Positions 885 through 57,170 of a stretch of 64,000 nt of DNA are shown piece by piece. Position 1 is the stretch's first letter. Each line of letters begins with the position of its first letter. The position numbers and the translations under genes are program-made. The notes below the pieces were generated by a model, which saw nothing but the letters and a program-made list of their open reading frames with translations, was not told the DNA's origin and searched no databases. The DNA is from Lepidurus packardi. Its lineage: Eukaryota; Arthropoda; Branchiopoda; Notostraca; Triopsidae. The DNA lies in NCBI GenBank assembly GCA_023053545.1, contig JAKZAN010000004.1, positions 7,874,001 through 7,938,000 on the forward strand, given 5' to 3'.

Positions 885-3179
885 ATGGTCTCAGTAACAC
901 CTAGCGTAATAAGTAAGCCGAATTTAGCGAGTGGCAATGATCGAGAAACTTCGAGAAACATCGTGAAACATCGACTCTACAAAACAGTTTATGGTCTACT
1001 GGGTACGATCGTACTGCTGACGGTACAACCAAAGTTGGTTTATGGACGATGCGTTTTTGGAGCGGATAACATAGACCAGCTAGTACTTCGAAACAATACC
1101 ATTGTGGGCCTTATGAACGATACTTTGCTCAACTACACTGATTACAGTCACAAAGACATTGCTGAGGTTTCAAGCTTCATGCTATGGAATTATCTGCAGA
1201 AGACTTACTCACTGACGAATAAGAACTACTTGGATTTCGTTACTATGGGCAAATTGTTGGCGGTCAACTGGACAAGCGGTAAACCTTTACTATTTAAGCC
1301 GATATACAGTACTAGTATAATATTTTCCACCACTGAAATAGCAACAATGGGAGTAAAAACCAATGAAAGTTCAGTATCCCGAACTGTAGCTTCGTTCATA
1401 ACTACTGAATTTGTGGATCCACTTCATAACACGCTTCAAGCTATGGCAGTTTACTACAGTATCACACTTGGGATTTTTCGACCCAAGAAAATGCAGTTTA
1501 ACTTTACCGGTATCACCCTTACATCAAATATGAATTCTACGAACACGGCGATTCTTGATTTGGGCTGCAGTGCAGGTATCGAAAATGCTGTCTTGCAAAT
1601 TACGGAAAATTAACAGGCTAATTTACAAATATCTTCACAGGTAGCTATTTTTTATGGCGAGTTTCGACGGGTGTGTCATATAACAAAGCATTTGGCAACG
1701 CCCGCAGCGTCCAATTTGTCACAGCAGCGCTCATGGTTGAGGATGCTGTAAGAATAATTGCAATTTACGATCACAACGACTTACCCTACAAAAACTTGGT
1801 TTCTTCTTTATAGTTTGACCGATATTACAGAACACATCTTGCGTTGAACAAAGATTTTGTTAGGGTTAATGTAGTTGCTGCTCAAGACAGTTTATTGTTT
1901 CTCGTATTGCACATGGAAGCTTATTTTCTCAACAGTTCCTACAGTACTTCCTATATCAGTAGTTCAACGATTATTTCTAAGCTACCCCCAATGTACTACG
2001 ATGATCCAACAACTACGTCAGCAGGAGCGAAAGTGGACATCAGAGATTCTACTTACACTCATATTTTCAATTGTACGTCTTTATTTATTTGTCATTTTAA
2101 AGTTGTTCATTAAACTGAACTATTTCTTAGCTTCTTATCCACCCCCTACCACAGAAAGCATTCCTACAACTACCCAAACCACAACCCTAGCGTCCTCTTC
2201 ACCATCAACTGCAACGCCCTTTGTACCATCAACTGCAACGCCCTTTGTACCATCAACTGCAACGTCGTCTTCAGATTGGACTGCTTCTTCTGATCAAGTA
2301 CAAGCATCAACATCTCCCAGTATTACAAACTCTAGTATGGCAACAAGACCCATCGATGCTTCTACTGCCAACCTCACTACTGTTGGCTTGTTCACGAATT
2401 CTTCCGAGTTACCGTCAATGGCGACCCAAAACTTGCAAGGTGCCTCTTCAACTACCTTAAACGCTTCAATGCTGCTAATAAGCGTAGCAAGCTCATACAA
2501 CATAAGTAAATCTGAACAAACAACACTACCATTCCAAGCAGCAGCAGCTAGTGTATCAACCGTATCACCCAATGTAACCCAAAGCTCTCTAGATATCTAC
2601 CTGAATTCGCTGAATGCTTGGTTAGCATATGTTACGGGCTCTTCGAACCTAACCTTTTCAACATCCCAGAAAGCATCTGGAAACATGACTAATCTAACGA
2701 ACTTCAATCAAACTAACCAATCAACAACTGTCAATGGTAGCGTAATTCCCTATAATTTTTCAAACCTTGCTACCCCTGAGACCCAGACAAGAAACACAGT
2801 AAGTAAGGGCAATCAAACCGCTACCACTGCTGGAGGTATTGAGGGTGTGACAACTTTCGACCCCGATCCGTTCTTTCAGGCCCACGTTCCCAAAGTCACC
2901 AAGATTTACAATGGTAAAAGAACTTCCTTTGGTCGTCTTATTAAAATCTGTTATTATTTACAGATAACTTTCTTCTTCAAAAAATGGGAACCATTAGTCC
3001 CCTAACAACACACGCTGCGTTCTTTAGCATTACCCTACCTGTGGCAATTGGTAACAACTTCAAAGTCCTTATGCTGCAAAATCTTCTAACTAATTTTGTT
3101 TATAGGAATCATTGCAGCTGTTATTCTTTGCATGCTATGTTGGCAGGTCGATTGCCTGTTTCGGCAGCGTAAAGTTTAA
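885..3179 (+). CDS. G1: mucin-like type I membrane glycoprotein of the array family
   Basis: Exons 885-912, 988-1278, 1342-1575, 1641-1747, 1814-2072, 2131-2913, 2964-3050, 3106-3179 join in frame to about 620 aa. The start is set by the family rule of a 28-nt first exon ending in phase 1; an unspliced reading from 759 also stays open. Signal peptide (LLGTIVLLTV) ends just before the first head Cys (CVFG). The head runs to the FDRYYR exon and includes the family motifs GIFRPK and GCSAG. The stalk (exon 6) is Ser/Thr-rich with a 24-bp tandem repeat at 2202-2263 (PSTATPFV). It ends in TTFDPDPFF and KIYNG. The membrane span is followed by CMLCWQVDCLFRQRKV. It is a single, diverged member outside the repeated blocks. 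Function unknown; homology to the other members is clear, but the exact start is inferred. Confidence 0.8.
2202..2263 (+). repeat. 24-bp tandem repeat in the G1 stalk
   Basis: The unit ccatcaactgcaacgccc plus tttgta occurs twice in full and a third time in part. It codes PSTATPFV and keeps the reading frame, so copy number can change stalk length without breaking the gene. Confidence 0.9.
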
Positions 3180-3945
3180 ACTGCAGTAAAAACTATTTTC
3201 GTGTGCGGATATGAAAAATACTTAGTCGGTCTCTTCCCACTTGTTGTGGCCCTTAAATAAGTTTTCCTCACTGACATTATGTTTTCCTCACTGACAATAT
3301 TACACCTCTTCCCCCACATTTCAGTCCTTGATTTCCGTGTTTTGGGAGTCCAAAATAATTTGGTTTCGACAATCGTGATCTGTTCACACTCGAAATGCAC
3401 GAGTAGTGAACTTACCCTGCAAGTGGTATACCGTCAATGCAATTGGGGTTTACTACCGGAAGTTCTATGCTATTTCTTTTCCTTATAAACGTCAAGAACA
3501 ATACACTAGGTCACACAAGTATGTTATTCGTCTCTTGCATAACTTGCTGGGATATCCCGGCAAAGGCGTGGATTTCGTGCGCAGTGAACATTATTGGAAA
3601 ACAATAGAAGCTTTCACGTCTACCCGAGGAAAGGAAATGTGTCACACAATGACGTCCTGTTAGAAAACGAGCAAAGAATACGTTTTATTCCTACTTGCTG
3701 CTAGGAAGAATTCAGAGTGTTTTAGGCATTCAGAGTAATCGGACAGCCAAGATTTGAAGGAAATAGGAACTCAGAAGAAAGTAGTAGGCTTCATAAGGAC
3801 CAAATACATAGACATAGACTGTGCCACACAACTGTAAATCTAAAGCTTTGAGTTCTTTCCTTTCATAAGGGACACCAATTGCTCCATTAATTGGTTGGGT
3901 AAAGGTTTATACAATTTGGGAAATCGGTATCCGCAGGAAACAGCC
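3180..3945. other. Upstream region of G2, shared with 28,588-29,085
   Basis: Roughly 3335-3900 matches 28,588-29,110 on the same strand with scattered changes, so this is duplicated promoter and leader DNA of type B genes. Open frames in it (such as 3406-3663) are not kept in the second copy and are not supported as genes. Confidence 0.6.
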
Positions 3946-6900
3946 ATGGGATTATTTCCACATGTTTTGATAGGTAAGGTAAAAACAAACACTGATGGAA
4001 ATCCTAGAGATCTGAGAATCTAATTAATTGCTAACTAAAAGACAAGGAAACGTAGGGAAGTAATACCGAAAATGGGACTAACCAAACGGAAAAATAATTC
4101 TAAGGATTTCATCTCCAGTTTATCTTCGCTCATGACTGTACTGCGATTAGCATTGAATAATTAACTAGCAATTAATGATGTAAAAGCAACTCGGCATATT
4201 TGAAAAGATTAGATAGTTGAAATTTGCTGCCGTATTTTCTATCAGCGGAATGTATCAAACTTTGAGACATTTCTATGTCTTCAAGGAGGGTAAGAAATTA
4301 CTCAAAAATTGTAACAACACAGGGCAGTGCAAAGTTGACATTCAACGATTACCGGAGTTCTGTTTCTAGTGCGAAGTACCATTTCACAAGTGAAGTCATT
4401 TTTTCGCTGTTATACCTAAAATGCGAACGTAGACTTTTATTTGGCTTAATCAAGAATTTACAGAATTAACTTTCTAGCAAAAAAGTTATTGTGCAATGTT
4501 CCGAAATAGTTTAGACACTTTTTGTATTATTTTTTTTTTTACTTTCGTTCAGGTATGGGAATTACAGGATTACTTGTAGTATTAAGCTTATCAGATCTGG
4601 CAAGTGGTGGATGCGTTTTGGGTTCCAATTATACTCACCTTGTATTGCGAAACACTGCCATCTTAGATAAAATGAATAGTTCCTTATTCAACTACACGAC
4701 TGCTGCGCAAGGAGCTATTTCAAAAGTTTCAAATTTTAACATCGAAGCTTTTATACTGCAAACATTTTCCGTTAACCGAACGACCTATCCTGTTTTTGTG
4801 AGTTTGGGGAAACTGCTGACCATTAATTGGACACAAGGTGAGTCGTCACATTTACTTTGGTTAGGTAGAAGTTTGAGACATTCCAAATAGTATAATTAAA
4901 TTACTTTCTTAAATAGCAACAAGCAATGCAATCACAAACGATACAACTGACTGTGGTCTGCCTTTGAGCTCATACATTAAGCAGAAGTACGTTGATCCAG
5001 TTCACGTCGCGTTGCAAGGGCTCGCAAATTATTACAGCTTCTCAGTGGGAATCTTTCGTCCAAATCGAACTCGTTTTCAATTTTCTGGACTTGCTACAGA
5101 CTCAAATGGTATTCCTATCCTGGATTTGAATTGTTCTGCAGGTGGATACTAATAAAATTGTAATACGAATGTAGTTCAGTGCAGATTTTTGCAGGCAGTG
5201 GTTTTGTTTGGCGGCTTTCTACAAACCTAACTTACCATGCTGATTTTGATAACATGTTAAGCACTAAGTACGCCATTTTAGCCAATACGATAGAAAACGC
5301 GGTAAAAATTACACTAGCTTATTTTCATTCTTTTTAATCACTAAACTGGTATAGTTTGACCGATATTATCGGAATAACAATGTTCTAAAGAATAGCTTCG
5401 TCCGCGCATACTTTATAAGTGCGACAAAAAGAACCGACGGAGGCAATTCATTCTTGATTGGGTACATGGAAGTTTACTTCCTCAATAGCACGTACCAAGC
5501 GGATTACATAACCAGTTCAACCAACTACTATGCTATCACAGACCTGATATATAGCGACGGAAATTCAACAAGTGCAGTAATTAGCCTTTTTGATAGCACC
5601 TACACGAGGATCAATCACAGTAATAAATAAATTGTCTATTGCATGTCTAATTGCTAAACTGCCTTTGTATACTGCATGTACTACTTTCCTTCGAAGCGTT
5701 ATATGCGACATCCTCTGCCGTCGCTGCTCTGCCGGTAACATCACCAGTACTAAGTACTACGAGCTGCTCAAGGTACACTCAATAACTGAGACGAATTAAC
5801 CATAGACAATCTGTAATAACGAATTAATATGATATTTATATTGCACTATAATCACTAAACAACCCGATGGTAGCCTTAATCAAACAACAACAAGGGGTTC
5901 TACGTCTCAAGCGACTACGGTCCAAAGTGTCGCAAAAGGTGCAAATAGCTCCACTGGACTGCCTTTGACACTAGGAACTAATGCGACATCCCCCGTGTCC
6001 TCGCCAACGCTTTCAGTCACAACAGACCTTTTAACAGACACAAGTATGGATTCCAAACTCTCGACATCGATGGGAGTTCCAAATGTGACCTTCCAAACAA
6101 CATTTTCACCCTTGCAAGGATCTTCGGCTTCAAACGCACCACTGGACACTGTTAACCTTACCTCAGCAACTTTAGCAACGAGTACTACAAGTAGCGCAAG
6201 GTACATTCCAAGTCCGAATAAAACGTAAATAGTTAAATGCTGTTAATAAATTAATTTCATTTCAGCAATACCAATCAAACGAGCACCTTATCCTTAGCTA
6301 TGTCTACAACTTCAGCTACAATAACTTACCCAGCTGCAAATAGCAACTTTAATGTGGTTTCCACGTCTTATCCACAGACTCAAAATTTTACTGCAACACT
6401 TTTGACTGGACTAGTGCAAACAAATTTCAACGTAACTACGTCGGGAAGCTTGACATTTGAAAACCAGTCGTCTTTGACAGCATTTAATGGGACAGCAAAT
6501 CAATATTCCACATTTACAGGGAGCCAGACTTATCCGATTTCAGCCGGTACTACTAGCAGCTCCATCGGCAATGAGAGTGGTACCTCCGGAACCAATCTTA
6601 ATGTCGGAGGTACAACTTATGGTGTTAATACGGGGAGTAACACCAACAATGGAGGAACAACTTACGCTCCTATTATGGGGACCAATATCAGCGATGTTGG
6701 AGGTACAACTCTTGCTGCACGAACAGGGACTTCCGTCAATGACGGAGGGACCACTTTCGACCCTGATCCCTTGTTTCAAGCGAACGCTCCCGTAATCGCC
6801 AAGGTTTACAATGGTAAACCAAACCGGCTTTGGTCTGTTTACTAAAGTTTATGTTGTTACAGATTTTATCCTGCTAAGGAAATTGGGCACCATGTCTCCC

Positions 6901-7111
6901 ATAACGGAAAAAGCGACGTTCTTTAACATTACCCTACCTGCGTCTATTGGTAGATTCCTAAAATCTTATTAATATTTAACATAATGTTTAAATTGCTTTC
7001 TAGTTTACGCTCATTTTTAACTAGTATGTATTTACAGGAATCATCGCAGCCGTTATTATGTGCATGCTGTGTTGGCAGGCAGATTGCCTGTTTAGACAGC
7101 GTAAAGTGTAA
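3946..7111 (+). CDS. G2: intact type B mucin-like membrane glycoprotein (reference member)
   Basis: Ten exons: 3946-3973, 4553-4837, 4917-5141, 5195-5301, 5355-5619, 5697-5772, 5874-6200, 6266-6813, 6863-6949, 7038-7111. They sum to 2022 nt, 673 aa, with every junction in phase. Exon 1 (MGLFPHVLI) and exon 2 form the signal peptide, cleaved near the first head Cys. Head: exons 2-5, with FVSLGKL.TINWTQG, YYSFSVGIFRP, LDLNCSAG, FVWRLS and FDRYYR. Two Cys (first residue of the head, end of exon 3) recur in every headed member, so a disulphide is likely. Stalk: three exons, Ser/Thr/Asn-rich with dense NxS/T sequons, then GGTT repeats. Next come TTFDPDP, KVYNG, GTMSPITEK, a membrane span and CMLCWQADCLFRQRKV. 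Intron 1 is 579 bp, the others 50-101 bp. Likely a surface glycoprotein; molecular function unknown. Confidence 0.88.
6597..6760 (+). repeat. GGTT repeats in the type B stalk
   Basis: Degenerate 13-17 residue repeats each carry Gly-Gly-Thr-Thr preceded by an Asn-rich stretch (NVGGTTY, NNGGTTY, DVGGTTL). The last one runs straight into the conserved NDGGTTFDPDP module. The same layout is found in G4 and G5. Confidence 0.8.
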
Positions 7112-8001: not shown

Positions 8002-8274
8002 GTGGGATTATTTCCACGTGTTAAAATAGGTAAGTTGTATGGCACAAGAACTGTCCAGCAAATAGCTATTATGCTCACTAGCAAAATGAATGTTAGAAGT
8101 TGACAAGCTAAATTAATACTATATAGATTAATGTACTCCAGTGCATATGGGGAATTTTACCTATAACGTTTCGGTAATTAGAGTTTCTTAACAAACAAAA
8201 GTCACTTGTGAGCTATATAAAAAAGTGTGTGTAATGATCCACAATAAAGTTGGACTCTTTTTCCACTTTTAGGA

Positions 8275-10728
8275 ATGGGAATGACAGGATTACTTTTAAT
8301 GTTAACCTTCCCAGGTCTAGTATTTACTGAATGCGCTTTTGGGCCAAGTAATATACAAAACCTTGTGTTACGAAACAAAACCATTTTGGACTTCATTAAT
8401 TCTGCTTTGTTTAACTACACAATGAGTGCACAAAATGTTATCTCTCAAAGTTCAAATTTTAATATTGAATACTTCATACTTCAAACATACGAGGTCAGCC
8501 ACTCAAGTTACCTTGAATTCGTTAGTATGGGGAAAATGCTCTCTATTAACTGGACAGAAGGTGAGTCTTCAATTCATTTTTTTTATTGAACTGTCTCAAA
8601 ATCATTCTTTAATGAAATAGCGACAAAAACGGCAACGATTAACGGTGCACACGGTAACCTGACGTTGGATTTGTATATCAAGCAAGCTTACAGTGACCCG
8701 GTTCATGTTGCCTTGCAAAATCTCGCAAGCTATTACAGTATCTCATTTGGAATTTTTCGGCCTTATCGAACCCAATTTCATTGTACTGGGTTTAATTCCT
8801 ATGATAATTCCTTACATATGTGTTATGCAGGTAAGAAACGTGGTAGAACAAAAAACTTATGGCAGAACTTAAACAACTCACTAAAGGAACTCTTAGATAT
8901 TGGTTTTGTTTGGAAGCTTTATTTAAACCTTATCTACAATGATGCCTTTGACAATAAGTTAGGTACTGAGTACGCAACTTTAGCAACTACGATTGAAAGC
9001 ACGGTATGGCCTACCAATAGCTCAACCCATTAATTCCAATTTAAGTGTTATAGTTTGATGAACACTACCGGACTAAGTCGGTTTATAACGGTAGTTTTCT
9101 TCGAACAAACTTTTTAAGTACAGAAAGGAGTCCTGACAATAACACAATTGGGTACATGGAAGCTTACTTTCGCAATAAGTCGTACAACGAAGACTTTATA
9201 AAGAGTTCACTGAACTTGACGCAAATCGTCATGACTTACAACGATAGAGTATCTCCGCCAAAATTACTTGGATTAATGAATTTTACCCGCATCAATCATA
9301 GTAAATACAACTTGCCTATATGCCATACATACCTAATCTAAAACGCATTATGTTTTGCTTGCGCTATTTTATCTTGAAGCTCTAAATATGCCAATCACCT
9401 TGGACACTATTCAGTTTCTACCTATGTTACAATTAAAAGGAACAAATTGGACAAGGTACCATTCCTAGAAAAGAAGACCTGACAAACTGAAGTAATAAAC
9501 TGATCTGATTTCGATTATAGTTATACAACTAGCATATGGTCCGCTGCCGGAACAACCCAAACAAAAACGAATTCTACGTCTAAAATATATGCAACTAGAA
9601 GTACCGAACAAATTTCAAGTAGTTCAAGTGAACCACCTTCGACATCACCATTACCTTTGCCGAGTGTTTTAGCCACTGTAGATACTACTACAAATAACGA
9701 AGATATAACGGGCAGTTCTAGTATGGTGTCCCTAACCCCGGTATCGACCATGATAACATTATCGAATTTAAGTGCAACATTCTCAGGCTTCCAAGAAAAT
9801 ACTTCTTATGCCCAACCCACGACCACGTTCACTACATCTGCAACTACTTTAGTAACGAGTACCAAGTTTAACACCAGGTACGCCTGTACAAATCTATTCA
9901 TTAAGTCAATAAGTGAATTGAGACCATAATTTGATGTTTACACAGCGTTCCAGATCAAACCACCATCTTCCGCTTTACCTCAACAGCCTTTTTAGGCACG
10001 ACAGCTTACAACTCTACTGCTGACAACTTGAGTGTGATTTCTGAGATTCCGGGAGCAACAACAGTTACGCCACCTTCGAATCTTACAACATCTTCATCAT
10101 ATATTCTGACCATGAATGCCACTACGTCACAAACTGCGACTATGACAGTCGATAAAAATTTAATATTCCAAACTAACCAGATTTTTCCGATCACTGCAGC
10201 TAATACTATCAGCTCCTCCAACAATGGAAGCCATCTCACAGGAAGCACTGTTAATAACGGAGGGACAGTTTCTGGTGCTAATGTGGGAAATTACACTACG
10301 AATGGAGGAAAAACTTTCGTGCCTAGCACCGGAATAAGTACCAGCAATAAAAGTACGACTCGCGTCACCAATACCGGGATCAACATCAACAACGGAGGCA
10401 CCACTTTCGACTCTGATCCATTCTTCCAAGCAGTTGTTCCCATAGTCACCAAGGTTTACAATGGTAAAGCAAATCAGCCCGTTACCGTAACTACACTTGG
10501 TCTATTGTTACAGATTACCTCCTCTTAAAGAAAATGGGCACCATGGCTCCTGTAACAGAAAAGGGAATGTTCTTTAGCATTACCCTACCAGTATCTATTG
10601 GTAGATTGTGTAAAACTTTTTTTCAGAAAATCTTCTAACTGCTATCGTTCATAGGAATCATCGCAGGCGTTATTATGTGCATGCTATGTTGGCAAGTTGA
10701 TTGCCTGGTTGGGCGGCGAAAGGTATAA
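8275..10728 (+). CDS. G3: type C mucin-like membrane glycoprotein with changed first exon
   Basis: Coding exons 8275-8560 (splice acceptor at 8272), 8621-8830, 8897-9003, 9054-9300, 9380-9455, 9521-9877, 9946-10463, 10514-10600, 10655-10728 give about 653 aa in frame. The normal 28-nt first exon is present at 8002-8029 with its GT donor, but its ATG reads GTG. The copy at 20,452 still has ATG. Translation probably starts at the exon-2 ATG, which still gives a signal peptide (MGMTGLLLMLTFPGLVFTE) before the first head Cys. The head shows FVSMGKM, YYSISFGIFRP and FDEHYR. The stalk uses three exons, as in type B, with exon 6 of exactly the same length (76 nt). The end has TTFDSDPFF, KVYNG and CMLCWQVDCLVGRRKV. 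Only intact type C gene in the window. Confidence 0.8.
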
Positions 10729-11722: not shown

Positions 11723-12408
11723 TGGGAATAGAAGGTTTACTGATAGTAATATGTGTGCCAAACGTTGTATTCGATGAATACGTTTTTTGGATCGAGTAAT
11801 ATAGCTCAGCTCGTATCCTAAAACCAAACCACTTTAGCCCAAATGGATTCTGCGTTACTAATCTACATTACTGCTACTCAAACGCTCGTTTACGACATCT
11901 CTGATTTTAATATCGAAAGGTTCCTACTGAAAGAACATTCCGTCAACCGAAAAACTACCTGGACTTCGTGAGCATGGGTAAATTGCAGTCTATTAACTGG
12001 ACAGAAGGTGCGTCGCAAGCCTTAAGTTTTCACTTTGCATTTTTGAGTGACACATTTACGTCCACTTTTTTGTAAACAGTTGCCGAAAGGGTGGTAATAA
12101 AACTAATACTTACAATAGTCCATGATCACCACACGGACTATTCTGGTGTCACAAATTCGAGTATAGTTTACAGACTTCTATATCATTTACAAACTAACAA
12201 TGGAGCTTCACGGATAGTGAATATGCTCCGAATATACACTAACGACTACTGTTCCTTTGAATGCTTCCTTGAAAAGGACATAAGTTCGCCCATTGTGTTC
12301 CATTTAGAAAGAATCGCCCCAAAAGAAGCTTTTACCTCCAATATAGCTCGGTGCTATTCTGACGATAGCACCGTCAAAAGGTTTTGCGCATTCGAACTGA
12401 AAGGTTAG
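11723..12408 (+). pseudogene. Type C-like remnant (exons 2-3)
   Basis: 11,723-12,007 aligns with exon 2 of G3: a signal-like start (GIEGLLIVI), then shifted frames and stops, and a recognisable end (SMGKLQSINWTEG) with a GT donor. A following stretch around 12,090-12,250 looks like a decayed exon 3. It is duplicated at about 24,870-25,110. The open frame 12,091-12,408 across it is shortened in that second copy and is not a separate gene. Confidence 0.6.
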
Positions 12409-12605
12409 TAGCTGGCTCAGACGAAATAAAGATAGACAGTAGAAAGTTACTCCGTCTTAAAGTGGTCGGCTTGTTCCATGTATGAAACTTTACTTCGCCA
12501 CACGAACTTTTAAGGCTTAATATCCAAGAAAGTTTACGTGTATACGATCCTGGAATTACCTAAGAAACACTAAATTCGGTATCGTCTTGTAAAATCGAGA
12601 AAATT

Positions 12606-14029
12606 ATGGGATTATTTAAATGTGTTATGCGAGGTAAGTAAGCAACTGAACTGAGTTATGTACAAGTTAGAAGGGAAGAAGTAGAAACAAAATACCCAAC
12701 GTTCTGTTAACGTTCTAGTTGAACCTATTTTTTTGGAAAATCTCCATTGATTTAAATTACTCGACCGCATTTAACAATACTAGAAGTATAGAGTTTGCCA
12801 GTCTTGCTTCCACGCTAGAAAATGCTGTACGATCGAGATAAATTACCATTATTTTTGCGCCGATATCAGCACAATATTCTTTTATTTTTAATAGTTTAAC
12901 GAATACTATCGCAGAAGTACGTCGATATCTCCACCGTCGATAACGTCCACCTCCAATACACAAGAGATTACGACAGTTACTACTGAACAAATTACTAGTC
13001 CACTTACAGAACTAACAACCATACGTAGTCTAGTTTCAACCGACAGCACTAGCAAACTTCCGTTGTCTACCACGTCTTCAGGAGGAACTTCCGTTCCAAA
13101 GGCTCCCAGTACTACTTCCTATCTATCATCTCTCGCGGACCCTGCTTCAATTGCCAGTACTTCATCATCTTTATCATCAGCTCTGACTCCACCTATGACT
13201 CCACCCCAAACTCCCAACGCTTTTTCCTATCCATCATCTCTAGCTAACAGCCCAGCTTCCACAACTTTAACTTCCAATACACCGTCTCTAATTAGTAGAT
13301 CTCAGATGACCATGCTCGCGAATCCCTTGTCAACCGATTATAGTGTTCCAATGAAATATACTAACGGAATGACGCAGAGAGTTGGTTCTACAAATGAAAC
13401 GACCATGTCATCCGGATCTTCTTCGAACTCTCAAAACAGCTCCAGAACGCTTCAAAATCATTGGACAAGCTCGTCATTCATGACAGATTTAATGAACACG
13501 AGCAATACATGCAAAACAACACACTGGTCACAAATAATACTGAACTTGACCACAATAAACATCAATACCGGCCTATTGCCCAGAAATTCGTCCATGTTTG
13601 CTGTTTCGAGCAACAAAACAGGAAACGCAGGAATTACCGGCAATCAAACTGGCAATGTTTCGAAAAGCGTTGACGGAGGAACCACTTTTGACCCCGATCT
13701 ATTCTTCAAAGCCAATGTACCAGTAATTCTAAAGTTTACAACGGTAAAATCATTTAGGATTCTCAAAATCCAAGCCAGGCAAATTTAATCAAAAATCGAA
13801 CAATATAGATGACTTTCTTCTGAAATCAAAAATCGGTACTTTGACTCTGATAACTTCAAAGACGACTTTCATGAGCATTACAATACCCACAGCTATTGGT
13901 AAGTTTTACGTTACATATTACCGTACTTGGGTCTTAAAGGTATAATTTCTTTTAGGAGTCGTTGTAGCTATTATAGGTTGCATGCTTTGTTTACAGATTG
14001 ATTGCTTGCGGAGAGGGAATAAAATTTGA
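12606..14029 (+). pseudogene. Broken type D gene (internal deletions and frameshift)
   Basis: First exon 12,606-12,633 (MGLFKCVMR) is intact. Compared with G6 and G7, a deletion joins the start of exon 2 directly to exon 4 near 12,722 and shifts the frame into a stop. A second deletion joins the first codons of exon 5 (FNEYYRRSTSI) to the stalk in frame near 12,940, removing the rest of exon 5 and its intron. The stalk (to about 13,745) is still open, but one base is lost in the KVYNG segment near 13,729. The last two exons survive, ending in a TGA at 14,027-14,029. Third copy of the D type. Confidence 0.8.
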
Positions 14030-29880: not shown

Positions 29881-29887
29881 TGCCAAT

Positions 29888-40443: not shown

Positions 40444-41237
40444 GGAAGCTCCAAGACATTGCAATAGACTATAGTTTTTCATTGGGAATTTTCCGTCCCA
40501 AGGAAATCAAGTTCAACTTTATGAGAACTAAAGATTCAAGCTCAATGGACAACTCGAATCTCGCTACGAAGTGCATGGCAGACTAGTTAATTACGACCAG
40601 GTGCATATGAACAAGCGAGTAAAGGTATATATAAAAGTATTTAGGGAGCCAATTTCTTTTGAGAATTCCCGGTACTTTGATTATTGGTACGACTTCGAAT
40701 GCGTCACCTAATACTACGGCTCTGTCTACTATGAGTAATTCATCCCAAACTTACCGGTCATCCGAAGAAACAGCTATTTTGACTTCACCAGCTTCTAATA
40801 CTAGCATACTATTGCCTAGCGTTTCATCAATAGACTGGGTAGTCCGTTACTTACCGAGAATACAGGAACTACAGAAAAAACGACTGTTTCGACGCTGACC
40901 CATTCTTCAAACCAACGTTCCGGTAATACGCAAGGTTTACAATGGTAAGACACCAAAATCTATAAACTCCTCAATAAACTACACATAATTTAAATAGTTT
41001 GTGTCCTACTTAAATCTCAAGTTGGAATAATTACTCATGTAACACAAGAAGCGGCTTTTGTGAGAATTACTATATCAATAGCGGCTGGTAGGTTCTAACA
41101 GTTAACTTATTTTAGAAGAAATCATAGCGAATTTATTATTCCCAGGAATTATTTTCTGTCCATTCTGCCTCCAAGTCGGTTGGTTAGGTCAGCGAAGGAA
41201 AAAGAAGAAAATGCAGGATCCTAAATATAGATCCTGA
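40444..41237 (+). pseudogene. Decayed array member beside the transposon
   Basis: The first exons are gone. Exon 3 is partly present from 40,444 (KLQDIAIDYSFSLGIFRPK, then KCMAD and a stop). A stub of exon 4 (SQFL) near 40,650 runs directly into a short stalk. The juxtamembrane motif is damaged (FDADPFF in shifted frames near 40,890-40,948, then KVYNG with donor). The last two exons remain at about 41,010-41,085 and 41,146-41,237; the latter has a Lys-rich tail of its own (QRRKKKK). No usable start. Confidence 0.8.
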
Positions 41238-41838: not shown

Positions 41839-44281
41839 ATGGCTGTTTTACAATATTTTGGGAGAGGTATGGCTAGTGGAGCTAACACTTTTTGTGTAAA
41901 GCGTGTGTTGTGGCGTTTCTGCTAATCCTTGATATTGAACAAACTTCCGTTTTGTGATTTTAGGTGGCATTCTGCTTTTACTGATCGCTGTACCACTACT
42001 GGCTAGTTCGGAATGCGAGTTTCAATCCAGCATTGGCAGATTAGTTCAGAGGAATAACACCATTTTAGGCGTTATGAACGATACGCTCATACGTTTTACG
42101 CGAAACGCAACTACAAAAATCCTATCTGTTTCAAGTTTCAATTTAAATACGTATTTACAAAGCAAAGAAGCTTATCAGACGAACAGCTTGCAATATGTGG
42201 CTCTCGGCGGCTTGAATGTTGATTGGGCAAGTGTAGCAAATGGTAAGTGTGTCTCTTTTCGAATTCGCTAAATTAAAAAAAATGTGGTGGAAATTTTCAA
42301 GGTTTTACTTTAACGGACTCGTCTATTGGCAACTTGGGTGCACATATTCTGAGCGTATACGTAATCCCGGCACATAAGCTACTGCAGGACTTGGCTACAG
42401 CTTATAGTATTTCCTACGGCCTTTTTAGACCCAAATCTGACCAGTATGGGTTCTATGGAATGTTCGATAATGCTACGAGTAATCTGGATATCGGAAATCT
42501 TAACCAAAATTGCGTAGCTGGTACAAAGAAAATAAGCAATAACTGTGAAAAAAACATTAAATGTTTATTTCAGGGAGACGATACTCACTTCCGTCAATTA
42601 AGGTGAACCTAACATGGACAACTGATTATCAAAATAGCAATAGTTCCAAATTTGCCGAGTTGGCATACACCTTGGACACGTTTGTATGACCTACTCCTTA
42701 CCATAAATCCAGCATAATATGTGAATTACATGTTGCAGTTTGACCAACTTCTTAGGGTCAGTACTTCGGCTGTCTCGAATGATTTCGTTAGATGCAGCGT
42801 TTTAAGCTGCTACACCTTTCTTACGTTAACATACTGCGGCATGGAGGTGTATTTACTTAGTAGCTCCGACAAATCAGCGGATATAAGAAAAGTCATTTAC
42901 CCAAGCCTTGGAACCTCGTATAACACAAACTTGGCTAGTGGCGCAAGAATTAATCTAGATACCTTCACTTCACTACTGTCAGCTAGTAAGTCAAAATATT
43001 AGTCTTGGTACGCAAAGGGTTAAGCTAAATTGAAATCATTCCCTTTCAAGGTGCAATACCGGCTACCACTATAGCTACAACCGTAACTCCAGACACAACT
43101 GTGGTTACTACGGGTTCAAGAGCAGCAACAGCAAGGTAAGAGTAGTATCAGTGATAAACCCTTAATTAGTTTAAAACCTAATGAGTTAATTCCTGTTCGA
43201 CTCAACGCACTAGCATCGGAAGCACCACAAATTCAATCTTCACCTCTTTTATGTCGACAAGTTATACTTCAATTACGCATTTGTCAACTCTTGCCCCTAT
43301 CTTAAATTCGACGTCGTTCGGTAGTCAAACGCACCCTTCGGATCCTTCAACACTTGTGTCGACCACTGTCTCATCAACAGGCTTCCTTCAGACCAATTCT
43401 ACTGCTACTCCCATAATACTACCTTCAACGCCATCTTTAACCTCTCTCTTTTCGATATCCACATACGGCGCAAACCTAACTACATCAGCATCTTCTGCTT
43501 TATCTACGTACAATGAAAGTATGACAGTGTCAACCGGAGCTGTAAGTATTTATTACAAGTAGGTACTCGATTTACATACTTATCTTCCTGACAGTCTCAG
43601 CCATCTACCATTACAAAATCTGCAAGTATTTCTAACAGCTTGGAAGACATTTCAACCACCAAAACTTTCAACAGTACCGAAAACCTCAATGTTTCGTCAT
43701 TTCAAAATGTTTCGACAACAATATCTTTGATCTCAAATGCTTCTCCTACTAATTCGACAGCTTTTCCATCCAATTCGACGGCTTTTCCATCCATTTCGAC
43801 GGCATCTCTCTCTAATTTAACGTCTTTTCCTTCCAATTTGACGGCTTCTAATTTAACGGTCACTAACTCAAACCAGAACACCTTATCTTCCCTTTCTTCT
43901 AATGTTAGTCCTCCTGCAAAACCTATCTATATATCAACAACTTTCGATCCTGACCCATTTTTCAAAGCAGAAGTCCCTGTCATAACGAAAGTTTACAATG
44001 GTATAGCCTCTACAGTAGTCTATAGGCACAACATTAATACGTTACTTTTTAGATGAGTACTTGCTGAAGTTACAGGTTGGAACCATGATGTCCCTAATGG
44101 CAAAGGCAACATTTTATAGTATCACTATCCCAGCAGCTATTGGTAAAAAAATTGTCTTCATTAATTTTTAAGAAGTAGTTCATTTTCTTACAATTCAGGT
44201 ATTACTGCAGCCATTATTGTCTGCCTCGTTTGTCTGCAGATAGATTGCTTTCACCCAACAAAAAAAGTAAATTCCCGATAA
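41839..44281 (+). CDS. G10: diverged mucin-like membrane glycoprotein
   Basis: Exons 41,839-41,866, 41,964-42,242, 42,302-42,520, 42,574-42,683, 42,739-42,985, 43,051-43,135, 43,214-43,541, 43,595-44,000, 44,053-44,142, 44,199-44,281 give 624 aa. I choose the second ATG (41,839) because it makes the 28-nt first exon of the family (MAVLQYFGR); 41,833 would add Met-Ala. Signal peptide ends before CEFQSS. Head motifs are weaker (YVALGGLNVDW, YSISYGLFRPK, QNCVAG, FDQLLR) and exon 5 has extra Cys residues. The stalk has three exons like types B and C, with an added phase-0 intron; it carries repeats of NSTAFPS near 43,745-43,820. TTFDPDPFF, KVYNG, GTMMSLM, the span and CLVCLQIDCFHPTKK follow. Confidence 0.8.
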
Positions 44282-44710
44282 AGAAACCTGAATTCCGACC
44301 CTCTGGTAGAAGTAGAATGTGCATAAAGTGTTCAAGGTGTTGGAGCAGCGTGTTTGCATGTTGGAGTGCTTTTAAATATCATACAGTATTGTATACTGTA
44401 CACAATAGAGCATGAGACACAAAGTACCCATTGTGACACGCTTTCAACAAAAACGGCCTTTTTGTTAAAATGTTGTTAAAATTTTTGTTAAAATGTCTTG
44501 TTCTTCAATGAATTTTTACAACGAAAACCGAAACATATTCATACAACAAAGGGCTTTTTGAAGTATATTTGCTGCATAGTTCGCATGAAATCATCACATT
44601 AGTCGACACATATATAGCCCAAGGGTCAACCTGACTTCACTACCGAACCTGAGTTCACTATTCGAATAAGCTCATTCGTTTGACGGAACTAATAAAGACA
44701 AGACCTAAAA
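44282..44710. promoter_or_regulatory. Intergenic region with candidate promoter of G11
   Basis: A TATATAG box at 44,611-44,617 lies 94 bases before the G11 ATG, which leaves room for a start site near 44,640. No other feature seen. Confidence 0.45.
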
Positions 44711-46792
44711 ATGAAGTCTTTCCTCACATCTAAGTTTAAAGTGTTCATCTTATTCCAAGTTCTAAATATCTTCTGTGCAATTAATAAAGTAAGGTCAGAG
44801 GAATGGGTGGACGGGTGTCAGCTCAACTCAACTTTCCGAGATGCTCGCAACGACTATTTAAGCCAAACTGTTCAAAATGAACTGATTGAAGCTACTAATA
44901 CAACCGGCTTGCGCATGGTGACAAATCTCGGTTATTCAAAATTGAGAAATTACGTCCTCAAATATACAAACGACACTTTCATGCTATACTTTATAAGCTA
45001 TGGAGGATTGTTGAACATGAACTGGAAAGAAGAAAGTATAGTAAACCACAAGCACTAGAATTCGAAGTTAATCTTAAACCATTTTAGCTCCGATTTTATT
45101 GACGAGAGATTACTTCTACGGCCAAATCTTTCAGTACTATATCACCCCCCAACATAAAAGATTATACGATAACGCGACAAGCACTGGATACTCCTTCGGA
45201 GCATTCCGCCCAAGGCAACACCGACATTACGCTGGTTACCTACCCGATAAACAGAATCCTCTGCCGCGATGTAACATAAGTCAGTTCACCGCGTTGATTT
45301 TACCCGAAAGAAACGTTTCATAAGAATATTTTTTAGGTTTTAATCATCTAGTTAACTTCTCTCTCGAATGTGCCCCACTTTTGGCAGTCGCCTTTATCCC
45401 AAAGAATGATTTCAACTATAGCATATGGTGTGCTACATTAGAAGCAACGGTAAATTTAAGCTTTTATGGACTAAGCAATCAATATCATGGATTTGCAAGA
45501 ATTTGTTTAATAGGTTGACGAATATTTCTTCTCGCTATACGATTTCTATTACGTAAATAGTAAAGTAGTCAACGCTAATAAAACTGCAAGTAACGCCACC
45601 TTGGTTGACGTGAAAATGCGAATTTATTTCGCAAATGCGTTTGACTTCGACTGGGAAGACAGTATAAATGAAGCGGTCCAAAATATGACGCAAATACAAT
45701 TCACCTACAACAACATTACCGTAGCGCTCCAAGAACCTTTGATCCATAACTGTAACTGTTTTTGCACGCATCCTATAAATTTATTCGCTTTTCTTCCCGA
45801 TATAGGTACCAGCTTCTACAACGAATCAGAACAAAGCGGAAATGCTTGCAACTTTCTTGCGTCCACGAAGTCCGAATCCGTGCAGCCAACATCAAATGAA
45901 CAAACGACAATGACCACCCTCCTGACTACAATCCCTGAGGAAGTAATCACTACGACAGTATATGTAACCAATTCCACTCCCAGTACAACGACCAGTACTG
46001 TAATACCTGCTAGAATCTCAACAACTAGCACTACTTTAGCAACTACGCGGTCTACAACTCAATCAAGCCGAGTTTCGGAATCTTCTTCCCATTCGACCAG
46101 TACCTCCTTACAGCCCAATTCGACAGTCTTTGTGACTGATGCATCATTCTTAAGCACTACCATTACAAATGACCCGACTACTGGAATGACTACTACCCTG
46201 TCACCAGAAACTTCGGCTACGATTCTAACAACTAACTCGTTCACTAATCTTAGCTCAATCGCTGGACTGTCAAACGAAACTACATCTTGGTCTAACCTAA
46301 CCTCGACTAATGGGTTTCAAAACCTGGTAGCTTCATTATATTCAACATCAACTTCTGGATTATCAAATGGGACTTTCAACTTGACTAAATCAGTAAATGG
46401 GTCAACTGGCGCACGTACAACGCCATATGATGACGACCCTTTTTTCAGAGCAGTGGTACCGGTTGTTACTAAAGTTTACAACGGTAAAATTACTAAACAT
46501 ACACATAGCATACAGTAATAGTACAAAGCGCAAACTATTACTTAGATCCCGTCTTGATAAGACCCTTAGCGGGTACTATGGCACCTCTGCTTGGAAAGAA
46601 GGAACTGGTCCTAATTACCATACCATCAACAGTAGGTAGGAAACTTTTCCATTAAAAGTAAGACAGACTATATTAATTATTCATTTTCATGTTTCTTCTT
46701 TAGCATTCATATTGGCGGTTTGCTTATGTCTGTGTTGCATTCAACTGGATTGGGTTGTCTTGCTACAACCCAAAGCCAAGAAGCAACCTTAG
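44711..46792 (+). CDS. G11: strongly diverged mucin-like membrane glycoprotein
   Basis: Exons 44,711-45,035, 45,088-45,279, 45,337-45,449, 45,514-45,751, 45,806-46,483, 46,522-46,635, 46,704-46,792 give 582 aa. The first two family exons are fused, so the intron in the signal peptide is gone. Signal peptide VFILFQVLNIFCAI; head begins DGCQLNST and keeps the second Cys (LPRCNIS) and GAFRPRQ. The 54-bp intron before the stalk is open and in frame, so its retention would add 18 residues. Stalk one exon. The module is altered (PYDDDPFF, VVTKVYNG) and the following exon is longer, with GTMAPLLG. The span and tail read CLCLCCIQLDW, so the usual DC is DW. AATAAA at 46,827-46,832. Confidence 0.8.
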
Positions 46793-48030: not shown

Positions 48031-49421
48031 ATGGGAAATTTGAGTGAAGTGCTGATATTACTTGCTATTTTTCCAACAGTTTGTTTTGGAGCTGCTGCCA
48101 CAGTAATACTTCCAACCGACAAGTAATACTTTTAGATTCTTACTATACGTTCGGATTTAATTTTCCTTACATGTACTTGTACAAGACCAGACTCAAATTT
48201 TACGATTCCAAACCCGCAAGACGGAAAAGTCAAGTCCATCGACATTACCTCGAGCAATGCGTTAACAGAAGATCCAGTGACTAAAACTACGTCTGGAAGC
48301 CAAGAAACCAGTTCTTCAACAGGGAATCCAACCACGACAACAATCAACAGCACGCCCTTAACCACAGCGACTACTAGTTCGGTCAATCTAACAACGCTTT
48401 CTACTTCCAATACCCCACTTGCAACCATAGTCCAAAACGTTTCAACCACAGCTTCAGGAATCTTTTTAGAGATCATAAGGGCTAGCTTAACCAACTATCA
48501 GTCAACGTCAATTAACGAGACGACTATTGTCTCAACCTCTTGGTCCACCGTGCTAGATTCCATTCTTAGCTCGACAGCTTCCTCCTATTCTAATTCTAGT
48601 GTGTCAAATACGACCTTGATGACACAGTCGACTGGAACTTCTACTGTTGGCCTAACGGAACTCAATTTGACGTCTACGTTGACATCACAAACGACCGATG
48701 TGTCTATGACCGAAATTACGACTCCTACAGATTCGACTGTTATAACAAGCCCGATTTCTTCGTACATCTCCGGCAGTGAAGAAATCCTTTCGTCGAACCC
48801 GGAGTTTATAATCACTTCCACGAAGGAAATGACACCCCTCCCTTTTTCTTCGACGTCAAATTTTTTTTCCAATATTCCAATTGCAAGCGCACTTATAATC
48901 ACCATTAAGACTGCTGTTTCTGACGTTGGAAGTACGGCGAACGATTTAAAAGTTACAGAAAACTTTTCTAGTCTGAATACGAATAAGGTATCAGCTTTAG
49001 GTTCTATGGCAATAAAAACAATTTTACCTTCTTTCTCGTACGATAAGGAAGATCTAACTACTTTCGATCCTGATCCGTTTTTCAAAGCCGTTGCTCCGGT
49101 GTTTCCCAGAATATTTAATGGTATAAGTTTAATTATGATTATATTCCTAACTTCAACGTATTTAATTTAGATCGCAATTTGCTGAAGTCCGCTATTGGTT
49201 CCAGCTCGCCTCTTACAGCGGAAGACAGATTTTATTATATCACTGTTCCCGCCTTTTTGGGTAAAATTCACGTGAACGTTTATATGTGATTACGTAGCAC
49301 GTTCTCTAGCTCTTTTTAATTAGGTATCGTGTTATCGTCAGTTTTTTGCCTATTTTGCTGGCATTCTGACTGCTTTGGAGCTGGTAAAAGTAAAGAAAAG
49401 GTCCCTCTCATGACTGCTTAG
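48031..49421 (+). CDS. G12: headless paralog, signal peptide plus stalk plus membrane anchor
   Basis: Exons 48,031-48,122, 48,186-49,120, 49,171-49,260, 49,324-49,421 give 404 aa with consistent phases (2,1,1). The first exon codes a complete signal peptide (MGNLSEVLILLAIFPTVCFG). It goes directly into a 311-residue Ser/Thr/Asn-rich stalk; the Cys-bounded head and its four exons are absent, and I find no decayed head exons before it. The end is fully conserved: TTFDPDPFF, FPRIFNG, then SPLTAEDRFYYIT, the span and CLFCWHSDCFGAGKSKEK. Either a head-loss derivative or a gene form that has only the shared anchor. The open frame shows no stop or frameshift, which favours a working gene. AATAAA at 49,626-49,631 and 49,630-49,635. 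Confidence 0.8.
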
Positions 49422-50067: not shown

Positions 50068-53000
50068 ATGATCTCTAGTTCTGTGGTTTTAATTCAGCGT
50101 TTCAATGGATTCGCGTTTGCACTACTATTTTCCGTATCCATAACCCTAATTGGAAGCGTAAACGGTGTTTGTCAATTTGGAGCTTCAGATGGTGACATGC
50201 TAGCTTGGAGGAACTCGACCATCGAGAATATGTTCAACGCGACTTACTTGAATATCACCTTAGCTGCAAATAGAACGTTGGGCAGTTTGACGTCGGATAA
50301 TTACAGCTTAATCAGAACTCTAGAAAATAATTTTTTAGTCCCGTATTCCTTAGCATTGGTGAACATTAAAGATCAAGACTTCAATACGATTGACTGGAAA
50401 TTCGAAACTTACGGTAGGATATGTTGTCTAATTATACTATACTTTATTGTAAGTTATGCTTTTCTAAGGTATAACTGTCAAACAAGGCAACGTTTCAGTG
50501 GACTTAGTTCAGTATATTGCGAGCATTTATACATATCCATTACATAAGGCGTTTAACGAAATTACTCAAAACTTCAGCTACTCATTTGGCTTGTTTCGCA
50601 CCGTGAATTTGCTTTACCGCTTCAAAGGCGTGGAGTTGAATGCCACTAGTAGATATCAACCATACATACCTTCCGGGTATTGCTACTCAAGTAAAATATC
50701 TCCTCGCTTTTGGAATCTAATTCAATGACCAAAGAAACTCATCTTTTATCCGCCACTTTAGCAACTCGTTACCTGGTTAACGTTACTACGTCCTACGTCA
50801 CTTCAGCTTCCTCGGTATATGATACCATATCCCCCATTTTGGCGCTTGGAGATTTCTTCGATATAATTGATCGGAGAGTAATTTATTAACTATTTCTTTA
50901 AAAATATACATGTATTTGTTTATAGTTCGACGGATATTTCCGAACAAATGGTAGCAAGTTTCAAGGAAGATTTTGTCGTGCTAGCGTTTTGAATTATACT
51001 TTGACTACCAGAGATAAGAATGGCTCTGTTGTTATGGAATTGTACTTTGTGAACGCTACTAATTCAATCGAAATGGCCGAATTCCTTTTCACACAGTCTA
51101 ATTATGCGGACAGATACTTCCTCGGTACTAATTATACGTACTCGAAATCATGGACAACTTACGAGGGTGAAATCCGAATGTATAATCCGTACATACTTTC
51201 TGGTAAATCGTCAATTTAATGGTCTTAAAAATTACTATGTAAGTAAATTTCTTAGTTCAAGGCTTGGGAACCCCTTCCACTTCGACTACCGTCCTACCAA
51301 ACACTACCACCAGTGCGCTAAACATTTCCTCAGGATGGAATACGAGCAGCTTAACTAATAACACTGCGAGTTTAAACGCTACATCTATTTCAAACCCAAA
51401 CATTACTACTAGCCTACCAAAAGTCAATACAACGCTGAATTTAGCGCCCGTTTTGGAGTTAAATACGACCACTACTCGCATACCTAGCGTCACTACATTG
51501 AACAGTACCTCAGGCTGGAATACGACCATTTTAACTAATAGCACTACGAATGTAAACGCTACGACTATTTCTAACCGAAACGTTACCACCACCTTACCAA
51601 AAGTCAATACGACGGAAATTATAGCGCCCGTTTTGTATGCAAATGCGAGCACTACGCGGTTACCTATCGCTACTACATTGAACGGTACCTCAGGATGGAA
51701 TACGAGCAGCTTAACTAATAACACTGCGAATTTTAACGCTACATCTATTTCGAACCAAAATGTTACTACTAGCCTACCAAAGGTCAATGCAACGCTAAAT
51801 TTAGCGCCCGTTTTGGAGGTAAATACAACGACTACTCGCATACCTAGCGTCACTACATTGAACAGTACCTCAGGCTGGAATACGACCATTTTAACTAATA
51901 GCACTACGAATGTAAACGTTACGACTACTTCTAACCGAAACGTTACCACCACCTTACCAAAAGTCAATACGACGGAAACTATAGCGCCCGTTTTGTTTGC
52001 AAATGCGAGCACTACGCGGTTACCTATCGCTACTACATTGAATGGTACCTCAGGCTGGAATACGAGCAACTTAACTAATAACACTTCAAATTTAAACGCT
52101 ACATCTACTTCGAACCAAAATGTTACTACTAGCCTACAAAAAGTCAATACAACGCTAAATTTAGCGCCCGTTTTGAATTTAAATATGACCACTACTCGCA
52201 TACCTAGCGTCACTACGTTGACCAGTACCTTGGGATGGAATACGACCATTTTAACGAATAGCACTACGAATATAAACGCTACGACTATTTTGAAGCGAGA
52301 CATAATCGGCGGCTTATCAAATTCAACTACGACAACAAATGCGACGTTCATTTTTGCGACAAATACGTCAACTACTTACCTACCTAACATCACCATGACG
52401 TCCAACATCTCTTTTAATCAAAAGTCCGTTGTAACGACCACTACCCCAACGAACATCAGTACGACGTTGAATTTCCTTTCCGTTTTCAAAGAAAACATGG
52501 CTAGCAGCTTACCAAACACTACCGTAACTCTAAAACTTACTTCTATTCCAACAGTACTATATACTATTACTACACAGCTGCGGAATATTACCACGACCTT
52601 AAACGTTCCTTTTCTTCCGAAAACAAATACAACCAACACAAAATTGTCGAATGTTACTACACCGTTAAGTTTGACATTTGCCCCTCAAGCAAGCGCAAAC
52701 ACTACCAGTCTACCTGCTAATATTTATGACAATTATCCAGACTACTATGACACTAACTCATCAAGCGAAAACTCGTCATATCTGAACGATAAGAACTCTA
52801 CAGGCTATAATCAAAACTCCTCTTTTGTTTGGCCAAACGGTACCAATTCGCCTTACACCAATCTGACGTCGTCCTCAAAAATACCTACAAATCTTACTAC
52901 GCTTGCGACCTCTTCCTTTTATACTGCGTAATACTGATTTACTAACAAGTTCCGGTTAATTTTTAAAATTATAGGGGTTTTAACATAACGTCATCGTCGA

Positions 53001-53708
53001 CTTCGCGAAGAATCGTTACAAACGCGACGACTTCTGCTTCAAATTTTACTACTTTTACTCCGCTAATTCGTAGCACGTCCACCAAAGCTACGAGCACCTC
53101 TACAATTCTGCATAATTCCACTATGCCAATAAAAAATACAACAATTTGGAGTACCTTGCCTGTTATAATAACCGTGTTGAAGAATACTGTAAAGTTTTCT
53201 GAAATATCCCTCAAAATTTTGCTGAGAACTTTATTTCGTCTAGTCTATGGTCTCTTCAACCTTGAAAACCACTACAACACCGTATTCGCAGAACTCTTCT
53301 GGTACTTCCACTCCTACCAAAAAAGCAACAATTATTCCAATCGATCAAACGACCTTTGATTCGGATCCTTTCTTCAAGGCTGTTGTACCAGAAATCCGCA
53401 AAGTCTATAACGGTGATTGATTGATTATTTAAAAGGAATGGATGAGCTAACATATATTTGCTTTTGCAGATAAAGTTCTTATGAAACAGTTTGTGACAAT
53501 GCCCCCTGTGACAGCAAACAAGTTTTTCTACACTATAGCGATCCCAACTGGGATTTGTAAGTTTTACGCATTTAAATATCATTATATTATGTGTAATATC
53601 ATAACTGTGCTTATAGGTATGGTCTTATTTTCAATGTGCTGTTTGGTTTGTCTTAACATTGATTGCGCCGCTGCTATAGCTAAGAAAAAGAAGTATACAA
53701 ACGAATAA
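50068..53708 (+). CDS. G13: giant-stalk mucin-like membrane glycoprotein
   Basis: Exons 50,068-50,413, 50,499-50,690, 50,762-50,877, 50,926-51,202, 51,256-52,927, 52,975-53,188, 53,244-53,412, 53,470-53,556, 53,617-53,708 give 1054 aa, the longest member. Family exons 1 and 2 are fused as in G11. Head: signal to CQFGASDG, YSFGLFR, SGYCYSS, FDGYFR, all diverged. The first stalk exon (557 codons) is built of six 60-residue repeats (SGWNT.. to ..TTLN) followed by further Asn-Thr-rich sequence. Two more stalk exons follow, separated by a phase-0 intron (53,189-53,243) as in G10. TTFDSDPFF, RKVYNG, MPPVT, the span and CCLVCLNIDCAAAIAKKKK close the protein. Almost every repeat carries several NxS/T sequons, so the ectodomain must be very heavily N-glycosylated. 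Confidence 0.83.
51325..52320 (+). repeat. 180-bp coding repeats in G13 stalk
   Basis: Six copies with an exact 180-bp period; odd and even copies resemble each other most (360-bp higher-order unit: NTSSLTNNT form and NTTILTNSTTN form), so growth was by doubling of a pair. The last copy fades near 52,300. Confidence 0.92.
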
Positions 53709-54851: not shown

Positions 54852-57170
54852 TTAAGGTACTGCGACAGTTTCCTTCTTTTTCCCACAATCAGCTTGCAGG
54901 CAACACATGCATCCAGTAGTTAGCAAGATGAGCACTAGGTTTAAACATTAGGTTTAATAAATTTCTCAATAGGTACTAAGTTTCTCGTACCGACTATAGC
55001 TGGGATAGTTATGGTCATCATAAATGTTGTAAAAGGGATAGGCGTTGGAGCTGAAGGAATGTCATGCTTTTCCGGCGCAATCGAAGGTTTACCTAGAAAT
55101 TTTCCCAGATTAATTTACTAAAGACCACCAGCCACTTGAGTAGGAAACTTGTAATTGTAGGCGAAGTATTGGACAATCGGGTTGACGACGTGTTGGTTAC
55201 TTTCCACGACGAGGTATATGAACCAGCTGGAAGGCCTGATAAAGTACTAGTCAAACCAGATACAAGGTAATTTGAAGTGTTTGCCCCACTGGTCGAAGAA
55301 ACGTTTAAACTGGGCACGTATGTACTTGTTTTGGGTACAGGAGATACAGTAGTCGAACCAGATAGAAGGTAATTTGAAGTATTTGCCCCACCAGTCAGCG
55401 AGATGTTTAAACTCGGCGCGTCTGTACTTGTGCTGTGTAAAGGAGATACAATACCAGTTGAAGCGGTTGCAGTGAAACAGTTATTGGTTACTCCGATATC
55501 TTTCAAAACCGCTTGAACATCACTCACGTTGAATTCTAAGAAATAAAGTCGTGAATAACTTAAAAAGCGATTTATTTCTGATTACCTTTATAGCAGTTTA
55601 GGCTTAGCTGCATTATCGTAAGATTGATTGTTGCGTAAGATCCGTAAAAATTTGCCAAATTTGCACTGTAATTCTGGAAATAGACCACGAATTTCATCCC
55701 TGAGTTCCCATTATATTCTAGATTTGTAAAACTCGAATTCCATGTTGATTTAGCCAGGGATGAACTCATCTTTAACAATACAATTAAATTATTTTACTAC
55801 CTAAAAAAAATTCATAAGTAATCTTCTTACCTGAGTGCTTAAGTCCTCAATAGAAGCAGCTGAAAGAGGAGTTGCATCCAAAAATGCCATAAAACCTATG
55901 AAATCATTTCGTAATAAGGTTAAAGTGGCATTTCTATAGCTGCCTCATACCTGCCGTGCAATTACAGATGTAACTCCATGGATAAGTACGGGGTGGGCTT
56001 ACTACCAAGCCAGGATACCTCATGGTAAGCCATGGCTTATACATTCCCAAGGTAATTCCAAAGTGGTTGGTCGAATTACGATTAAGGTCGTGAATTAACC
56101 AAATGGCGGAGCTAATAGTTTGGTTAATAAAAGCTAAATCTTGAGTTGATAACGTAATGTTTGTCAATTTTGCCATCATTGCAGTCCAGTCCGTAAGATT
56201 TAAAGTTCCATTATATGACAAATCCCCGAAATCGGATCTAGGGTACTTTGTAATAATAGCTTGCGTCCAATTATAGCTTGCTCCATATTTAAGAACCAGA
56301 AATCCCGAATGGGCGTCGATCAAAGCCTTGATTTTTCTTGGCAAGATAATCTTCCGCAGTACGTCCGACTTGTCTGCTACTATTGCAGCATTAACGCTAC
56401 AATTACACGTGATTCCGTTATTGGAATACTCCACATCCGTTAGCGAAAAACCTTTGAGTCAAAATTAATCAATATAATGCTGTGACCATGGATAGTGCTG
56501 ATTTACCTGTGCTATTGATTAGGGCTGCGAGTGACGTTATCGTGTTGTTCAATGAAGTTGAATTGAACAAGGTGCTTAGTAAGCCTCTTGAATTAAGATA
56601 ATTTAGAGTGTTATTTAGCAGGGATGCTAGTTTAACCAGATCAGTGCCATTCAGTAAGGTCAAATTAAGAGAACTCAAAGTTGTTGCGTTCAACAGCAGG
56701 TTCAGGGAAGGAAGATTCGTGCTGTTCAACAACGCAGTTAAATTAAGTAGACTTGAAGACGTTGTGTTAAGCAACGCAGCTAATTTAGCTGGATCAGTAC
56801 CGTTCAACAACGAAGCTAAATTAGACGAATTTGCTGTTGCGTTTAGTAAGGAGGTAAGTGATGCAATATCAGTAGTATTGAGTAACGTAGTTAAGTTAGC
56901 GAGATTCTGGGAAGTTGTGTTCAACAGTGAGACTACTTGAGTCGGATCATTGACCGTCACTAGAGAAGTAAGCGAATTCAAAGATGACGAATTAACTGAG
57001 GAGGCTGGTGAGGATAGACTAGTGTTATTCAATGAAGAAGTATTTAAAATGGTAGTGAAGTTTGTTGAAGTAGGGAGTAGAGTAACCGATATAAACGCTA
57101 AACTGAATTTCAGAGGAATTAATAGTAAGTAGACTACCACATTGTACATTCTAAATGCTGAAAACCGCAT
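54852..57170 (-). CDS. G14: reversed family member with a stalk placed before the head
   Basis: Exons (minus): 57,170-56,507; 56,451-55,951; 55,895-55,831; 55,769-55,586; 55,535 to about 55,150; 55,092-54,991; 54,934-54,852. Exon 1 codes a signal peptide (VVVYLLLIPLKFSLAF) and then about 190 residues of Leu-Leu-Asn-Xaa-Thr repeats. Only after this comes the head: CNCSVNAA, then HFGITLGMYKP and YICNCTAG, matching GIFRP and LDLSCMAG of the others, with family exon phases. A short Ser/Thr stalk with a duplicated stretch (PSLN[IV]S..GANTSNYL) follows. The donor of exon 5 is unsure; a weak GTTTCC site would give a 56-bp intron. TTFDPDPFF is not recognisable. The last exons read MTITIPAIV and CMCCLQADCGKKK, clear family marks. 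About 650 aa. Confidence 0.7.

Follow-up and report, generated by a model that had tools for sequence, protein, structure and literature searches.

A tandem gene family of predicted single-pass surface glycoproteins with SEA homology in the tadpole shrimp Lepidurus packardi

Introduction

What kind of protein is encoded by a run of genes that repeat one membrane anchor while their outer parts differ from copy to copy, and does selection drive that difference? The question is raised by a window of 64,000 nucleotides (bases 7,874,001-7,938,000 of a 12.9-Mb contig in the 108.6-Mb genome) of the tadpole shrimp Lepidurus packardi, for which an initial annotation had described an array of mucin-like surface proteins belonging to no recognised family. 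We consider it reasonably probable (about 0.65) that the genes encode a lineage-expanded, SEA-type membrane glycocalyx made of single-pass surface glycoproteins, which would evolve as a tandem birth-and-death family.

Extent of the array

The window holds 15 copies of the TTFDPDPFF..KVYNG anchor motif, all on the + strand, and 13 of these loci look complete or nearly so. A minus-strand gene raises the tally to 14, and the array of at least 14 members announced by the initial annotation is therefore real. Its limits were drawn too narrowly: the part within the window stands, but the array runs 56 kb further to the left, where 16 further anchor motifs, found by scanning 90 kb of upstream sequence, reach window position -55,447. 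The anchor set analysed comprised 31 loci, with one doubled copy at -22,693 omitted. When the whole genome was searched with one anchor consensus, a second array of at least 11 anchor places came to light on this contig, at 7.343-7.393 Mb, together with at least two isolated loci, at 0.549 Mb of that contig and on contig C4; at 8.0345 Mb there is a head, with no anchor found at that place. Pseudogenes counted in, the family amounts to at least 46 loci genome-wide.

Loci are named here by the window position of their anchor. The members at 6750 (4510-7109), 19152 (16924-19510) and 23821 (21556-24181) form a trio, and those at 27365 (25437-27724) and 32160 (30226-32507) a pair; in all of these except 32160, as in the member at 10400 (8248-10726), the start given is the beginning of the open frame holding exon 1. 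The member at 2850 (1050-3177) has head exons at 1050-1278, 1342-1575, 1641-1747 and 1814-2072, followed by the stalk and by anchor exons running to 2913 and at 2964-3050 and 3106-3177; its start codon was not placed. The minus-strand member (54855-57170, running from about 57.2 to 54.9 kb) shares the module and has an anchor that resembles the others but lacks a TTFDPDPFF match; its pieces, assembled by eye, are a signal-peptide-like start, LLNTT-like repeats, the N-terminal module, the stalk, the anchor and a Cys/Lys tail. The LLNTT-like stretch, at 57170-56472, is an additional N-terminal feature of this member and is perhaps heavily N-glycosylated.

Some other features of the window and the assembly were recorded. 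A 91-bp tandem repeat in two copies lies between members at 24685-24875. Just outside the array there is a kexin/furin-like proprotein convertase exon (61055-61210, + strand; PDB sequence matches at E 4e-9), and at 62858-63136 on the minus strand an exon like those of Major Facilitator Superfamily transporters (Pfam E 8e-7, short of the curated cut-off). Mitochondrial COX1 has many nuclear copies across the genome; one of them is open except for one TAA when TGA is read as Trp and, translated with the invertebrate mitochondrial code, shares 98% identity with Lepidurus apus and L. couesii and 96-97% with Triops, which places the animal among the tadpole shrimps, in or near Lepidurus. Contigs C52 and C214 carry bacterial-type COX1 without internal stops and perhaps come from co-sequenced bacteria.

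Exon plan

Heads were located by a purpose-written spliced protein-to-DNA alignment, with the head of one gene, that at 38429, as query. This gene (36503-38746) provided an end-to-end model of eight exons and 608 aa (36503-36530, 36583-36918, 36992-37213, 37282-37409, 37450-37708, 37776-38492, 38550-38639 and 38700-38746), the first exon and the start at 36583 having been placed by eye. Scores above 240 were obtained at 22 of the 31 anchor loci (1399 for the query gene itself and 244-642 for the 21 others), and the best control scores were 90 on the 31 reverse strands and 86 on 31 shuffles of the same regions. Since 30 of the 31 loci exceeded both control maxima, chance is excluded as the source of the array heads. 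A profile built from the 22 heads returned 369-953 for those same heads, the control maxima being 57.6 and 54.9; this comparison is partly circular. Of the other nine loci, six scored 122-233 and three 57-84. Heads of the second array, which lay outside the profile training, scored 69-161 in 10 of 11 cases against the control maximum of 57.6, with one at 32, and the two single loci reached 112 and 135. In the second array and the single loci, it is chiefly the N-terminal module and the anchor that resemble the main array.

Splice positions agree. In 21 of 22 heads, intron 2 lies at column 151 of the profile, and the anchor introns sit at column 22 (27 of 31 loci) and column 52 (all 31). The phases themselves, which had been thought fixed, are exactly 1,1,0 in only 14 of the 22 heads, the other models containing a frame slip or a junction that is added or displaced. 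The model at 35363 (33350-35704) contains a single frame slip in exon 3 and that at 43937 (41939-44279) one at the exon 3/4 junction, where the junction model is provisional. The locus at 49057 (48031-49419), counted among the 13, has a signal-peptide-like start, a stalk and an anchor, joined by eye, and no head was found in it. A splice path through the stalk was obtained for 14 of the 24 loci attempted (nine were dropped by the filter and one gave no path), and stalk splicing as modelled is uncertain.

SEA homology in the head

The head had been described as a Cys-bounded unit of four exons. A Cys-bounded part does exist, but it is limited to exons 1-2: this N-terminal module spans profile columns 1-149, with Cys at column 1 in 21 of 22 heads and at column 149 in 22 of 22 (36687-37213 in the 38429 gene). 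In the hand-spliced gene, the Cys that had seemed to close exon 4 came from reading on into the intron; the spliced chain has Ser. The module carries the motifs RN..I and YS.S.GIFRP and is predicted to be helical, with fair confidence in exon 1 only.

Exons 3-4 gave a different result. Of the 23 segments searched, 15 matched the SEA family PF01390 at E<=1, the best of them at 9.1e-10, and the remaining eight had no match at that threshold. When seven heads were used as Pfam queries, one, the spliced head of the 32160 member, passed the cut-off (30 bits vs 26.4), three more matched below it and three had no SEA match at E<=10. No Pfam SEA match was seen in the pieces of the minus-strand member or in those of the divergent member at 46420 (44696-46790), including its exon 4 reading. 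A profile of the exon 3-4 segments searched against the PDB retrieved 2e7v (1.6e-5), TMPRSS11D 8vis (1.8e-5) and 1ivz (0.0026), all of which we take to be SEA domains, and columns 161-237 of the whole-head profile, which fall in exons 3-4, align to 2e7v. A match to agrin (0.44) was not counted, being weaker than two unrelated reductase chains (0.2) that were themselves taken as noise. The SEA fold consists of a four-stranded sheet plus helices. On the evidence of these profiles, exons 3-4 of the main-array heads (columns from about 150) are a SEA domain; in the 38429 gene it occupies 37282-37708 and is assigned through the family profile, this head alone having no Pfam match. The profile search that the initial annotation had proposed as a check thus does reach a known domain (PF01390, TMPRSS11D), albeit one without a single defined function, and the family is no longer wholly unrecognised; what remains of that claim is that the N-terminal module, the anchor and the architecture as a whole found no relatives in the sequence searches run.

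SEA domains of the autocleaving type carry the motif G-S-V-V-V. None of the 22 aligned heads has this motif. Outside this set, GSVV is kept at the cleavage-site position in exon 4 of the divergent member at 53349 (50068-53706), whose stalk contains a 180-bp tandem repeat of 5.4 copies (51321-52294). These observations bear on the idea that the proteins make up a structural matrix (cuticle, adhesive, or coat of the egg or cyst) that is secreted or shed, the span serving for delivery only and proteases releasing the ectodomain. The SEA domain is a cleavage point in vertebrate membrane mucins, according to passages of a mucin study (PMC9578598), and the furin-like exon lies about 4 kb past the array, although such nearness proves nothing. 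The missing cleavage motif speaks against release, as does the first anchor module, the most conserved part measured, and we regard a shed matrix as unlikely, preferring a glycocalyx that stays in the membrane.

Stalk, anchor and tail

The stalks of 13 of the 15 window members contain 34-46% Ser+Thr and 2-8% Pro, the other two open frames being too short to count; this Pro content is low for a classical mucin. The stalk had been called packed with sequons. Over the 13 members there is indeed an excess (121 observed vs 88.6 expected from shuffles), but it is moderate, comes from few members and is not seen in the trio, so that dense packing does not hold for each member. The stalk of the 38429 gene (37776-38428) has 42% Ser+Thr and 13 N-glycosylation sequons in 218 aa. 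Its anchor (38429-38746) comprises the TTFDPDPFF..KVYN module and the membrane span, and ends in a tail shorter than that of many relatives. Among the window members a hydrophobic span is followed by a short tail, in many cases CxLCWQxDCLxxRxKV or similar, and 8 of 15 tails end in K-V or K-I, endings that were compared with the PDZ motif in the cytoplasmic tails of the MUC3 cluster. The sequence bears out the proposal of mucin-like, membrane-anchored proteins encoded in tandem. Their glycosylation, surface location, tissue and role are inferred.

Divergence and selection

Mean identity over 210 pairs was 75% in the first anchor module, 41% in the N-terminal module and 34% in the SEA part, confirming a variable head on a conserved anchor. 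Neighbours are more alike than distant copies (identity vs distance, Spearman -0.35 over 231 pairs, permutation p 0.001). It could be asked whether these are mostly functionless, decaying duplicates. Two clear pseudogenes lie in the window, one at 13681 (11786-14027) with stops and frame slips in the head and a frame slip in the anchor, the other at 40882 (40410-41235); fragments of heads occur near 14904, 24395 and 29830, and some heads contain frame slips, and in recent copies dN (0.034-0.082) is close to intron divergence (0.034-0.081). However, frames, splice columns and anchor have been kept though the heads average 37% identity, which makes general decay very improbable.

The diversifying selection that the initial annotation had expected was not borne out. 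Four recent pairs, including the three that the trio provides, gave head dN/dS values of 0.53-0.74 (Fisher p against equality between 0.047 and 0.29), and diversifying selection is therefore not established for the heads, where it stays unproven. In the stalks it is possible: one stalk exon of the trio showed 18, 14 and 18 replacement vs 1, 2 and 3 silent changes (raw counts); dN/dS was 0.53-1.00 in the trio's other stalk exon and 0.65 for the other pair's stalk. That single exon, together with the tandem arrangement and the variable outer parts, is what could be expected of gamete- or self-recognition proteins diverging by sexual or allorecognition conflict; the values for the heads, the second stalk exon of the trio and the other pair's stalk point the other way, and we hold such a role to be improbable.

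Discussion

A membrane-bound glycocalyx accounts best for these results. In the structure that we propose, the outer end would consist of the module enclosed by the two Cys, which is probably helical, and after it a degenerate SEA domain that probably does not cleave; the Ser/Thr/Asn-rich stalk would hold both away from the membrane, in which the protein would be fixed by the conserved juxtamembrane module, one span and the short Cys/basic tail. The likely site would be an exposed epithelium, such as that of the gut, gill or epidermis or the surface of the egg or cyst; there the variable outer parts would serve as barrier, decoy or recognition surface.

Several known systems resemble this family in part. 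Vertebrate SEA-type membrane mucins include MUC1 and MUC16 as well as MUC3, MUC12 and MUC17. The last three form a gene cluster with the order PTS, SEA, transmembrane domain and tail, and passages of the same study place SEA-type membrane mucins as vertebrate in origin (PMC9578598). As far as those passages describe them, they share with the shrimp family a Ser/Thr-rich stalk, a SEA domain, one span and a clustered arrangement, but their SEA domain sits between stalk and membrane and is mostly autocleaved, whereas in the shrimp it lies beyond the stalk and lacks the cleavage motif. The shrimp SEA is, moreover, preceded by a module without known relatives, and the shrimp stalks are short and Pro-poor. 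The shrimp order is thus module, SEA, Ser/Thr stalk, anchor, span and short tail, not stalk-SEA-span, and because of this different order and the loss of the cleavage motif we do not file the family with the SEA-type membrane mucins. Work on divergent SEA domains cited by that mucin study may already include arthropod cases. TMPRSS11D, a SEA-bearing transmembrane serine protease, is among the closest SEA sequences in solved structures to the shrimp segments, but no protease domain was seen in the shrimp proteins, and proteases of this type are oriented the other way in the membrane. Parasite surface mucin and coat arrays, like the shrimp array, consist of tandem copies with a conserved anchor and a variable outer part; the shrimp genes differ in being intron-rich, animal and SEA-bearing, and no sequence relation to parasite coats was found in the general searches run.

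A bolder reading, which we put forward only tentatively, is that an arthropod lineage independently built and expanded inverted-order SEA-type membrane mucins, in which SEA and a new helical module would form the variable tip of a highly diversified recognition or decoy coat in a vernal-pool crustacean. More generally, a crustacean family with some 46 loci, pseudogenes included, whose main array joins SEA, stalk and span would show that vertebrates are not the only animals in which this combination came about, and that its order can differ; the locus is also a compact one for asking how surface coats diversify.
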